Origin: Treponema sp.
GTDB taxonomy: Bacteria > Spirochaetota > Spirochaetia > Treponematales > Treponemataceae
Direction: 5' to 3'
DNA length: 37,445 bases
Assembly (NCBI GenBank): GCA_016282835.1
Contig: JAEELR010000024.1
Coordinates: 1-37,445, forward strand
A program made the position numbers and the translations under genes. Under the pieces are notes generated by a model. The model was not told the DNA's origin. It saw nothing but the letters and a program-made list of their open reading frames with translations, and did no database searches. Of the stretch, positions 12,826 through 22,903 are shown piece after piece (within the stretch, counting starts at the first letter, position 1; every line of letters begins with the position of its first letter).

Positions 12826-12844
12826 AATCATTTTCTTGAAATTG

Positions 12845-12874
12845 TTGACATATTCAAAAAGATTTTTTTATAAT
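12845..12874 (+). promoter_or_regulatory. Promoter TTGACA-18-TATAAT
   Basis: TTGACA 12845-12850, TATAAT 12869-12874; followed by palindrome AACGAACTTCGTT 12882-12894 and ATG 12905. Confidence 0.7.
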
Positions 12875-12904
12875 AAAGACAAACGAACTTCGTTCAGTTT
12901 GATT

Positions 12905-13192
12905 ATGGATTATGTTTTTGTAAAAGATTCAGAAGGTTATGTTTTTAAGAAATTAGAAAATGAAGTTTCTCCAGATGAAAAAATAATTTCTGAAAAAGAA
13001 TATATGAAAAAATCTGGACTTACTTCATATGAAAAGAAATTTGGACATGGTGGTGCAAGAGAAAATGCAGGAAGAAAACAGAAATTTGCATTGCCTCTGA
13101 AATTTCAAATTCGTGTAACAAAAGAAGAAAAAGATTTTATTGCCTACGCAAGAGAACATAAAGTCGACTACTCTGCTCTGATGCAAATGTAA
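12905..13192 (+). CDS. Small antitoxin-like / RHH-like DNA-binding protein
   Basis: From ATG 12905: MDYVFVKDSEGYVFKKLENE...GGARENAGRKQKFALPLKFQIRVTKEEKDFIAYAREHKVDYSALMQM; basic linker plus RHH-like C-terminus. Confidence 0.5.
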   Translation: MDYVFVKDSEGYVFKKLENEVSPDEKIISEKEYMKKSGLTSYEKKFGHGGARENAGRKQKFALPLKFQIRVTKEEKDFIAYAREHKVDYSALMQM

Positions 13193-13260: not shown

Positions 13261-13263
13261 ACA

Positions 13264-13333
13264 GATCCTGAAACAAGTTCAGGATGACAGTTTCGTCTTG
13301 TCATTTAGATCCTGTAACAAGTTCAGGATGACA
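13264..13333. repeat. Two direct copies of palindromic repeat GATCCTG(A/T)AACAAGTTCAGGATGACA
   Basis: Copies at 13264-13289 and 13308-13333, one mismatch; stem CCTGAA/TTCAGG in the first. Confidence 0.9.
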
Positions 13334-13354
13334 GGTGCTCATAGGTTTTCCCAC

Positions 13355-16300
13355 TTACTCCAATTCAACATAAGTTTTCCCAGAACCACCGTCTTCCGGG
13401 CGGGCAAAGTGGAAGTCTTTTATTCCCGGATAATTTGAGAGCAAATCTTTTACTGCCTGCTGTAAGATTCCGTCTCCCTTTCCGTGAATAATGCTGAACG
13501 ATTTAAAGCCTGTGATTGCACATAAATCCAGCTGCTTCTGAACTTCTTTTAAAGCCTGTTCACATCTCATTCCTAAAAGGCGCAGTTCAAATTTTGGTTT
13601 TTCAGTTTTGTATTCTGTGTTTGCATATTCAACACTCAGGTTTATTTTGCTTTGATTTGATGGAGCTTCTGCAGGAATAATTTCTTCTTCTTTAAAATTC
13701 ATTTTTATTGAACCAAAGTGTACGGTGTAGAAATTATTTTTTGTTTTGCTTCCAAGAATTCCTTTTCGTTTTTCTTTTCCTGCTAAGACTTCAATTCCTT
13801 CTTTAAGTTCAATCTTCTTTGTTTCATTAGATTTTCTTGCCGGAAGTTCGATTGCTGTAGCATATTCCAGGGCCTTTGAATTTGAAAGGCGGGCTTTAGT
13901 TTTTTTATTTGATTTTGACTTTGAATTTTTAGAAGTAAGTTTCATTCCGTTTTCAAAGATTTTAACTTCGCCTGAATGCTTTTCTTTTTCTTCTTCGAGT
14001 TTTTCTTTTTCACTTTCGAGGAGCATATCTCTTTCTGAAAGTTTTTCCTGTAAAGAAGAAATAAAGTTTTTTGCTCCTAAAGTTTTTTCTCTTGTTATTT
14101 CGCCTTCCCGTATTTTTCTGATAAGGTTTTCCAGTTCCTTTCGGCTTTCAGATAAAAATGCAAAGCTTTGTTTTTGTTCGATTGTCTTTAATTCTAACTC
14201 TTTTTCTTTTAGTTTTAGTTCTTTTTCCTGCTGCTTTAATTTTTTTTCTTCGAGTAAGATTTTTTCTTCTTTCTGTTCTTCAACTAATTTGTCCAGTTCA
14301 CTGTGTTTTTCTGTGAGGCCTTTTATGAGCGTGCTGACATCTGCCTGTTCTGTGTTCAAATAATTTTTTGCCTTGTCGATTACTTCCTGTGCAATTCCGC
14401 TTTCACCTGCAATTTCAAGAGCGTGACTTTCACCTGGAACTCCCATTAATAGCCTGTAGGTAGGGCGCAGAGTGTTTTTGTCAAAATCAACGCTGGCATT
14501 TATACAGTAAGGATTTGTGTATCCGTAGTTCTTTAAGATTCCGTGGTGGGTTGTAGCGATTACCCAGGATTTTCTTTCCAGGAATGTATCTAACTCTGCC
14601 ATTGCAAGAGCACCGCCTTCCTGAGGGTCTGTTCCGCTTGCAAGTTCATCAAGTAAAAGCAAAGTGTTTTCGTCTGCGTGTTCAAGCATTTGGGAGTGTT
14701 TTTTCATATGTGCCGAGAAGGTACTTAAGGAAGAATCGATTGACTGCTCGTCTCCAATGTCTGCAAAGATTTTTGTAAAGACTGGCAGCGCTGTTCCGTC
14801 TGAAGCAAGAACCGGGAAGCCTGCCTGATTTAATAGAGCGCTGAGTGCAATCGTTTTTAATGTAACGGTTTTTCCTCCTGTGTTTGGTCCTGTGATGATA
14901 AGAATTTTTTTGCCTTCCAGATATTCTATGTCGAGAGGAACACATTTTTCTCCCAGAAGCGGGTGGCGGACTTTTAATAATTTTAGTGTTTGTCCTTCAC
15001 TGCATTCTAAAGCGAAAACTCCTGAGTGCTGTATTTTGTATTTTGTTCCTGCAGCGTATGAGTCGAGTTTGATTAAAATTTTATGGTTTTCTTCTAATTC
15101 GTTTCTGTACAAAGAAATTTTTGAAGTAAGCTCGCGTAAGATTTTTTTTGTTTCCGAGATTAATTTGTATTCGGCTTCAACAAGCATATTGTTTGCCTTT
15201 ACAACTTCATCGGGTTCTATATAAACTGTCTGCCCTGTAGAACTTACTTCATGAACGATGCCTGAAATTTTTGAGCGGTTAGAAGCTTTTACTGCAAGAA
15301 GCTGTCTGTCGCTTCTGTATACGGGAACATTTGACTGTAATACTGTGTTCAGGCTTGAATCGCTTGTGTATTTTTTTATTGCGTTTTCAATCTGTTTCTG
15401 CAGGTTTAAAATGTTTTTTCTGATTTCTTTTAATGCAGGTAAATCCCTTATTTCGCCATAAGAATCAATTACAGAAAAGATTTCATTTTCTACGAATGAA
15501 AGATCTGACATTGCTTCTGCGTTTTTAGTAAGCAGGGGAAGCGTAAAGTTTTCAGATGAAGTTTTTATAATTTCTTTTAATTTTCGTGAACTGATACAAA
15601 ACTTTCCTATAGCAAATAATTCTTCTTTTGAAAGCTGAGTGCCGGAAACCTTTAATGCCTGGAAGGATTTTTGAACCTGCGGGAAATATTCTATCGGGTT
15701 GCTTCTTGTTGTTGTAAGAATTTTTTCCCATTCCATAGAAATGTTTTTGATTTCGTTTATTTTGTTTGAATCGCTTGAAGCTTCTCTTTTTAGAGTAAAG
15801 TCTTTGCCTTCTTCTGTGCTGCTTAAGCTTGCGATTTCATCTCTGATTCTGTAAAAATCTAATTCTTTTGCAATTTGTCCTTTCAGGAAAATGTCAGTTT
15901 CTTCTTCTGAGTCTGAATTTGTTTTGCTTTCAATTGAAAAGTATGAAAGGATGTCATTCGGTACCTGAGCAAAATTGCTGGCCCCGCAGGAAGTTAACTG
16001 CTCTTCGGTTCTAAAGCCCCACAAAACGCTTATGCAGTCGAGGCCCGCATTTAATGAAGTTTGATAATCTACATCGGAGTCTCCAGCGTAAAAGGCCTGG
16101 TCTTTGTTTACATTCAGGTTTTCAAGCACTTTATAAACAGAGTCAGGCTGGGGTTTTAGTTTTATTCCTTCCTGAGCGCCGATTGCACAAGTGGAGTCAA
16201 TATATTCGCTGAAAAATATTCTGTTTAATTCTTTAACCTGAGCGTCCGGTTTGTTTGAGACAATTCCCATTTTGATTCCGTTTGCTTTAAGGGTTTTCAT

Positions 16301-16582
16301 TAAGTCTAAAATGCCTGCGTAGGGTTTTGTTTTTACAAGGCAGTTTTTACTGTAAGTCTCCTGTAAAAAACTATATGCTTTTTCGAAATTTGGATTTTGA
16401 GTTCCGCCCGGGATGGCTCTTTCTAAAAGTTTTTTTATTCCGTTTCCAACAAATTTCCGCACCTCGTCTTTTGTTCTTTGTGGCGCGTTAAACTTTTTTA
16501 AAACAATGTTTGTGCTGTCAGTTAAATCGTCGAGAGTGTCCAGTATTGTTCCGTCCATGTCAAAAATGATTGCGTTTTTCAT
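13355..16582 (-). CDS. mutS2: Fusion: HAD phosphatase (Gph-like) + MutS2 ATPase with Smr domain
   Basis: One 1075-aa ORF: N-term MKNAIIFDMDGTILDTLDDL...GIVSNKP...GDSDVDYQTSLNAG (HAD); then MutS2 with GPNTGGKTVTLKT, LLLLDELASGTDPQEGGALA and Smr-like HGKGDGIL. Confidence 0.92.
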   Translation of the reverse strand: MKNAIIFDMDGTILDTLDDLTDSTNIVLKKFNAPQRTKDEVRKFVGNGIKKLLERAIPGGTQNPNFEKAYSFLQETYSKNCLVKTKPYAGILDLMKTLKANGIKMGIVSNKPDAQVKELNRIFFSEYIDSTCAIGAQEGIKLKPQPDSVYKVLENLNVNKDQAFYAGDSDVDYQTSLNAGLDCISVLWGFRTEEQLTSCGASNFAQVPNDILSYFSIESKTNSDSEEETDIFLKGQIAKELDFYRIRDEIASLSSTEEGKDFTLKREASSDSNKINEIKNISMEWEKILTTTRSNPIEYFPQVQKSFQALKVSGTQLSKEELFAIGKFCISSRKLKEIIKTSSENFTLPLLTKNAEAMSDLSFVENEIFSVIDSYGEIRDLPALKEIRKNILNLQKQIENAIKKYTSDSSLNTVLQSNVPVYRSDRQLLAVKASNRSKISGIVHEVSSTGQTVYIEPDEVVKANNMLVEAEYKLISETKKILRELTSKISLYRNELEENHKILIKLDSYAAGTKYKIQHSGVFALECSEGQTLKLLKVRHPLLGEKCVPLDIEYLEGKKILIITGPNTGGKTVTLKTIALSALLNQAGFPVLASDGTALPVFTKIFADIGDEQSIDSSLSTFSAHMKKHSQMLEHADENTLLLLDELASGTDPQEGGALAMAELDTFLERKSWVIATTHHGILKNYGYTNPYCINASVDFDKNTLRPTYRLLMGVPGESHALEIAGESGIAQEVIDKAKNYLNTEQADVSTLIKGLTEKHSELDKLVEEQKEEKILLEEKKLKQQEKELKLKEKELELKTIEQKQSFAFLSESRKELENLIRKIREGEITREKTLGAKNFISSLQEKLSERDMLLESEKEKLEEEKEKHSGEVKIFENGMKLTSKNSKSKSNKKTKARLSNSKALEYATAIELPARKSNETKKIELKEGIEVLAGKEKRKGILGSKTKNNFYTVHFGSIKMNFKEEEIIPAEAPSNQSKINLSVEYANTEYKTEKPKFELRLLGMRCEQALKEVQKQLDLCAITGFKSFSIIHGKGDGILQQAVKDLLSNYPGIKDFHFARPEDGGSGKTYVELE

Positions 16583-16691
16583 AAAGTCCTTTTTTGTTAA
16601 GCGATGTTTTTATTAGAGTAAATTTATAGTTTTATATTTCTTTATTCAATATTTGGTGTTGTTAGTTTTATATCAGCATCTGTATAGTACA

Positions 16692-16840
16692 GATTCCGAA
16701 ACAAGTTCGGAATGACAGATTTATTCTTCACTATAAAGAAGAAGTTTGTCATGCTGAATTCATTTCAGCATCTGTGTAGTACAGATTCTAAAGCCATGCT
16801 CAGAATGACAGGTTGTTGTGGTTTCGACAGGCTCAACCAC
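16692..16840. repeat. Cluster of dispersed palindromic repeats
   Basis: GATTCCGAAACAAGTTCGGAATGACA (16692-16717), inverted GTCATGCTGAATTCATTTCAGCATCTG (16748-16774), GATTCTAAAGCCATGCTCAGAATGACA (16784-16810), GTGGTTTCGACAGGCTCAACCAC (16818-16840). Confidence 0.88.
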
Positions 16841-17008
16841 CGTGTTATTCAATATTTACTAAGCCCGGTATGGAGCACCTGCGAAGCAGTCCGGAGGATG
16901 ACCGGAAGGGAAGTGCGTAACACCGGATGAAAAAGAAATGATTTGTCACAAGAAGAAATTTTTTGCGGGAGAGAAAACTGGCGTCCATAAAAATAAAAAT
17001 CAATTTAA

Positions 17009-21739: not shown

Positions 21740-22903
21740 CTAATTAATCGTTTTGCTGGAATTCAAATACCCAGGTGTTACTTCTTTTGTTTTAATCCAT
21801 TCGTCTTTTGAGTCTGCATAAATTGTTTCGTTAGAATCTGCTGCATCATCTTCTGCTTCTGCATTTGTTTCATCTAGAAGTCCACTAATGTTCTGTCGTG
21901 ACATGCTTCTTGCTGCTGCTGACTTTGTAATGCCGTTTGAGTCAAAATACGGGCCGTTCCAGATTTTGCTTTCAACCAGGACTGAAGCATAAGGTGTGTA
22001 TGAATCTTCGAGCATTCCGTCCTGTGTATAAATGAATCCATCAAGCGCTTCGTTTGTATAGGAATTTCTTACGATTACAACATCACCGGTTGCATTGAAA
22101 ACAGACTTTGTACTTTCTGCCCATAAGTCAATTGCCGTATCACAGGAATCAATGTGAGTTGAAATGCATTTGTCTTCATTTGTTTCGCTGAAAATTCCTT
22201 CTTCCACTTCATCCTTGTAAGTTGGTGTCCTTAAATGAACTGTAATGTAATCTCCTTTCTGTACATCGATTGCAGGGAATTTAAATTTTCTGTCCTCACC
22301 GCTGCTTGCACAAACTAATTCGATGCCGCTTAAGTTTCCGTCTTTTGTGCAGATAAGCTCAGCGAATTCACTTTTATGCACTGTTGTTTCACCGGATTTC
22401 ACTGAAGCATAGCCGATTCTGATTTCAGAAAGCAAAAGGCCTGCCATGTTTGTGTTGTAGCCTGTGAACGGTAAGCTTAGTGTAAGTGTATTTCCGCTTT
22501 CATCTGTTGCAACTGTGTCCAGAATGTATTCAATTCCTGTCTTGCAGATTGATTCAAAATCGTAGGTCACAGAGTTTTCTGTACTGTTGTAGGAATCTGC
22601 AGAAACATTCAGCTTTGTGTCTGAAGCTTTTTCTGAAAGGATTGAGTTTTCAAGCGTAACATTTTTGTTAAAGTACAAAACCAGGTTATTGCTGCTTGAA
22701 AGACTGAAATCCAGCAATACAGGAAGAACTGTGTTTTCTACAAAAGTGATTGGTTCTTCGGTAGTAATTGCCTTTACAACATCAGAAGGATTTGAACAAC
22801 CCGTTGGAATAAAACTTGCTGATACAGAAAAAGTAATGGCAAGTGTCGGTAGAATGGTTTTAAATAGAATTCTTTTAAACATATTTTTCTTTTGCATATA
22901 CAT
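21740..22903 (-). CDS. Lipoprotein, possible lamin-tail-like domain
   Basis: Signal peptide with lipobox SFIPTGCSNPSD; LLLSEIRIGYASV...KSEFAELICTKDGNLSGIELVC and terminal EWIKTKEVTPGYLN suggest an LTD-like fold; GGAGG upstream of start. Confidence 0.6.
   Translation of the reverse strand: MYMQKKNMFKRILFKTILPTLAITFSVSASFIPTGCSNPSDVVKAITTEEPITFVENTVLPVLLDFSLSSSNNLVLYFNKNVTLENSILSEKASDTKLNVSADSYNSTENSVTYDFESICKTGIEYILDTVATDESGNTLTLSLPFTGYNTNMAGLLLSEIRIGYASVKSGETTVHKSEFAELICTKDGNLSGIELVCASSGEDRKFKFPAIDVQKGDYITVHLRTPTYKDEVEEGIFSETNEDKCISTHIDSCDTAIDLWAESTKSVFNATGDVVIVRNSYTNEALDGFIYTQDGMLEDSYTPYASVLVESKIWNGPYFDSNGITKSAAARSMSRQNISGLLDETNAEAEDDAADSNETIYADSKDEWIKTKEVTPGYLNSSKTIN

Follow-up and report, generated by a model that had tools for sequence, protein, structure and literature searches.

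A HAD-family phosphatase joined to MutS2 in one open reading frame, and its ancestry in a tandem gene pair

Why should a phosphatase and MutS2 be encoded as a single polypeptide, and does their union mean that they work together? The question is raised by a gene on the minus strand (13355..16582) of the window, the whole 37,445-nucleotide stretch of DNA analysed here. The preliminary description had presented this gene as one unbroken ORF that joins an intact HAD phosphatase to a complete MutS2, and this was borne out by Pfam, TIGR01069 and the conserved motifs, with HAD_2, MutS_V and Smr domains all found in the same ORF.

Organization of the fused gene

The ORF starts with ATG and comprises 1075 codons plus a stop, with no stop codon inside it. 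A possible Shine–Dalgarno sequence, AGGA, is read directly 5' of the ATG (16587..16590, minus strand). The gene has no co-directional partners, as gpsA (17064, plus strand) diverges from it and an ORF at 12836-13192 (plus strand, 118 aa, no Pfam match) converges on it. Elsewhere in the window, an ORF at 21740-22903 (minus strand, 387 aa) also showed no Pfam match. The intergenic region between the fused gene and gpsA contains repeats (16650-16870), for example TTTATATCAGCATCTGTATAGTACAGATTC, present twice, 92 nt apart; 53 further matches across the genome identify these as a dispersed repeat family. Directly downstream of the fused gene, a 28-nt sequence, AGATCCTGAAACAAGTTCAGGATGACAG, occurs twice, 44 nt apart (13263-13334), and this pair resembles the upstream repeats in style.

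The N-terminal module (residues 1–205; 15968..16582, minus strand) is a Gph-like phosphatase of the HAD-IA group. Its Pfam HAD_2 match covers residues 5–186 (E 2e-35) and spans the full length of HAD_2, and all four HAD motifs are present: DMDGT (residue 8), SNKP (109), KLKPQP (141) and GDSDVD (167). Assignment to HAD-IA is based on these motifs, the HAD_2 match and the cap fold in a confident structure model (pLDDT mostly above 90). The scores against the Gph equivalog models fell below their cut-offs (TIGR01449, 114.5 versus 180; NF009695, 131.3 versus 225), as did those of the stand-alone relatives of the fused HAD in the genus against the phosphoglycolate phosphatase equivalogs. The earlier label "Gph-like phosphatase" holds, with the correction that every phosphoglycolate phosphatase equivalog cut-off was missed, so that 2-phosphoglycolate is no more than a candidate substrate of the fused HAD. 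The other strong HAD_2 matches examined in the window's genome are different proteins, which suggests that the fused copy is the sole such phosphatase in the assembled 93% of that genome. A scan of a wider genome collection for named relatives returned only four distant HADs, from Firmicutes.

The remainder of the protein is a complete MutS2 (residues 223–1075; 13358..15916, minus strand). It matches the TIGR01069 mutS2 equivalog over residues 237–1074 with 715.8 bits (cut-off 400) and the B. subtilis MutS2 structure 8qpp with an E value of 2e-119. The MutS_V ATPase domain (PF00488, residues 561–743; 14354..14902, minus strand) contains the Walker A motif GPNTGGKT (residue 565) and the Walker B motif LLLDE (642). 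It is followed by a KOW-like domain (about residues 925–970; 13673..13810, minus strand), which aligns to the KOW domain of 8qpp and has strands with pLDDT near 90, and by an Smr domain (PF01713, residues 1002–1074; 13361..13579, minus strand). Pfam detected no MutS_I mismatch-recognition domain in the fused protein; a separate MutS-like ORF of 847 aa lies elsewhere in the genome.

The Smr domain keeps its HGKG motif (HGKGDG at residue 1033), but the DxH/DLR motif is replaced, with LRLLG found where LDLRG is expected (13361-13590 in the window). The change from DLR to RLL is genus-wide in the MutS2 alignment (consensus FELRLLGMR), with HGKG retained, so mRNA cleavage by this Smr domain is unlikely. 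The DxH/DLR motif is optional, many MutS2 proteins having already been reported without DxH, and DLR is dispensable for ribosome splitting by B. subtilis MutS2 (PMC10897456). Splitting of collided ribosomes is the best-studied role of MutS2; the B. subtilis protein binds collided ribosomes and splits them through ATP hydrolysis, without mRNA cleavage (PMC10897456). The parts used for splitting, namely the lever, clamp, ATPase, KOW and Smr, are all present in the fused protein.

In the structure model, a confident HAD module is followed by a confident MutS2 module that includes the KOW-like and Smr parts. Between them lies a linker (residues 206–222; 15917..15967, minus strand) that appears to combine the old C-terminus of the phosphatase with the old N-terminus of MutS2, and of which 13 residues (210–222) are predicted to be disordered (pLDDT below 50). 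The linker sequence, FSIESKTNSDSEEETDIFLKG, is similar to the N-terminus of a MutS2, such as MIQNETNETDIFLRG from the start of MutS2 in the tandem gene pair of genome G044, suggesting that a stop, a frame offset and an ATG were lost in the window's lineage. Between residues 150 and 330, the in-frame start codons are limited to GTG at 152, TTG at 187 and ATG at 283. As there is no in-frame ATG, GTG or TTG between codons 187 and 283, the window offers no standard initiation codon from which a nearly complete MutS2 could be made on its own, and the fusion stands against the objection that an internal start yields two complete proteins.

Recurrence and origin of the fusion

The window's own fusion is known from one metagenome assembly of its species. 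Among 200 genomes of the same genus (probably Treponema), the full-length HAD–MutS2 fusion was found in three others (G123, G204 and G127). Such recurrence rules out a local frameshift or an assembly fault as a general explanation. Two of the carriers, G123 and G204, are sister species, and their fused genes align without indels over 3273 bp at 90.7% DNA identity. Both halves of the gene are under purifying selection in this pair (dN/dS 0.065 for HAD and 0.067 for MutS2; 0.12 over 36 junction codons). The fused lineages carry three different linkers, and the linker is thus not conserved. Other long frames in the genus were rejected as fusions: that of G052 (1146 aa) has a TAA between the two genes, and those of G003, G004 and G011 are only apparent, the search output having run through stops, with MutS2 frames of 847–874 aa.

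A tandem arrangement, with the phosphatase gene immediately 5' of mutS2 and in the same orientation, occurs in about 24 further members of the genus. Some of these junctions overlap as ATGA (G021 and G027) and some are a few bases apart, while in G001, G052, G128, G135 and G140 the two genes share one frame, with a stop followed by an ATG. In the remaining genomes, which are the majority, the two genes lie apart or no close homologue of the phosphatase was found. Since the genes lie apart in most of the genus, their partnership is optional.

The MutS2 tree placed every tandem and fused genome in one clade (44 rows, support 99), together with 17 genomes in which the genes are unlinked. On this tree the fused state requires three changes. 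A single origin for all four fusions was rejected (AU p 2e-55); one event shared by the window and G127 was not (AU p 0.14). In outline the HAD tree gives the same picture: the tandem genome G203 stands beside G123 and G204, and G127 is nearest to the tandem genomes G196 and G001. Taken alone, the short HAD alignment does not reject a single origin (AU p 0.13), although at least two changes are required by the branches with support. From these sequences we conclude that there were at least two separate fusions, and probably three. Comparison with the tandem sister G203 shows a 47-nt deletion in G123 and G204 that spans both the TAG and the ATG and joins the two frames; this deletion explains the fusion in their lineage.

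Across a phylum-wide sample (395 genomes), the matches listed included no HAD-fused MutS2 frame outside the genus. Among these, the only frame over 1000 aa outside the genus was the 1011-aa MutS2 frame of G076, from another family of the order. It carries no HAD fusion, and instead overlaps an rsgA-like GTPase ORF in another frame (L124, 17-3569). HAD relatives sampled across the order lie mostly in frames of ordinary length, and none of the three inspected adjoins mutS2; a HAD in a 909-codon frame (G249) had no MutS2 partner among the ORFs listed nearby. The possibility that the fusion was already well characterised was also considered, and no HAD–MutS2 or Gph–MutS2 fusion was found in the literature searched, which lay mostly outside subscription papers and domain-architecture databases.

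Possible functional meaning of the fusion

We consider it likely that an ancestral operon of a gph-like gene followed by mutS2 underwent recurrent fusion in one clade, giving two independent enzymes. One polypeptide would result from small changes at the junction that removed the stop, the start of mutS2 and the frame offset. The HAD phosphatase would then be attached to the MutS2 homodimer by a disordered tether some 13 residues long, and the MutS2 part would keep its role in ATP-driven splitting of collided ribosomes or in recombination. Any benefit of the fusion would probably lie in fixed 1:1 co-expression, or the fusion may be near-neutral, rather than serving substrate channelling. We infer that the full-length protein is present in the cell, that both activities are retained and that the modules act independently; two independent enzymes in one chain is the most likely reading.

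It had been proposed that the fusion suggests a functional link. The fusion itself is intact and recurrent, but it argues little for such a link, because, in tandem and often overlapping genes, the disappearance of one stop and one start is enough for fusion, and the two genes lie mostly apart in the genus. Selection for coupling, as opposed to neutrality, could nevertheless lie behind the repeated fusion. A real partnership, in which the phosphatase would act on a phosphorylated product made at the site of MutS2 action (collided ribosomes or recombining DNA) to detoxify or edit it, making a two-activity quality-control enzyme, is in our estimate unlikely.

That the chain is split in the cell, with internal initiation or proteolysis of the linker restoring the usual two proteins, is rather improbable. 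The predicted disorder of the linker would suit it, as would the in-frame GTG at the junction of G127 and the in-frame ATG just upstream of the junction in G123 and G204. The window itself, however, lacks a start codon in the relevant interval, and initiation at codon 283 would remove about 60 residues of MutS2.

Two forms of coupling at the ribosome can be envisaged: the substrate of the phosphatase may be a phosphate on a tRNA, on a nucleotide or on cleaved RNA in the vicinity of collided ribosomes, or the phosphatase may modulate MutS2 docking by its bulk. The activity of B. subtilis MutS2 on collided ribosomes, the KOW and Smr parts and an RqcH-like NFACT protein encoded in the window's genome all point this way. 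Against it, the three lineages share no conserved linker, and we know of no HAD enzyme of the fused type at collided ribosomes. Taken together, the two forms are quite doubtful.

Coupling to DNA repair is very doubtful. On this view, MutS2 would recruit the phosphatase to sites of oxidative DNA damage for removal of the 2-phosphoglycolate released from 3'-phosphoglycolate ends. The Gph-like nature of the HAD and the recurrence of the fusion are compatible with this, and loss of mutS2 in Thermus reportedly gave an oxidative-stress-linked transcriptome (PMC3084264). However, 2-phosphoglycolate is a soluble product, so tethering would be unneeded; the HAD scores below the Gph equivalog cut-offs; linkage of the genes is absent from most of the genus and, where checked, from genomes outside it; and the organism is probably an anaerobe. 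The link to 2-phosphoglycolate and DNA ends is possible, and is not needed to explain the fusion.

A sequencing or assembly error that removed a stop or shifted the frame in a normal tandem pair is scarcely credible, despite the 287 contigs of what appears from its fragmentation and contamination figure to be a metagenome assembly and the in-frame stops at the same place in relatives, since the mutS2 start is missing as well, which a single error would leave unexplained, and full fusions occur in three other assemblies, including the indel-free sister pair.

The HAD–MutS2 chain is a domain architecture that we have not found described, formed separately more than once, and intermediate operon stages persist in sister species, so that gene fusion is seen stepwise. 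Should the two halves prove to cooperate, a phosphatase of metabolite repair would be connected with ribosome rescue or with recombination control; otherwise the case warns against inferring function from the fusion of already overlapping neighbours.

Comparison with known systems

The closest comparison is with the tandem gph-like/mutS2 pairs of the genus (for example those of G203, G001 and G021), which contain orthologous genes in the same order and are the evident ancestor of the fusion; they differ in that the genes remain two ORFs, whose stop and start codons commonly overlap. The HAD module shares the HAD-IA fold and all four motifs with Gph (TIGR01449, NF009695) and with its best solved relatives, the established or putative phosphoglycolate phosphatases PDB 2hi0, 2yy6 and 2nyv. 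It differs from Gph in scoring below the equivalog cut-offs and in being joined to MutS2.

For the MutS2 part, the best structural matches are models of B. subtilis MutS2 and the MutS2 cores of Thermotoga and Thermus. The fused protein and B. subtilis MutS2 (8qpp, 7qv3) have the same order of core/lever, clamp, ATPase, KOW and Smr, with the Walker motifs and HGKG in both, whereas the N-terminal HAD phosphatase is an addition and DLR is RLL, as throughout the genus. Fusions of MutS-family proteins with nuclease domains, DPD1–MutS1 among others, are known in plants and algae (PMC12292046). In these fusions an enzyme is likewise added at the N-terminus of a MutS-family ATPase, but the partner is a nuclease, the MutS subfamily is a different one, and the fusions belong to eukaryotic organelles (PMC12292046).
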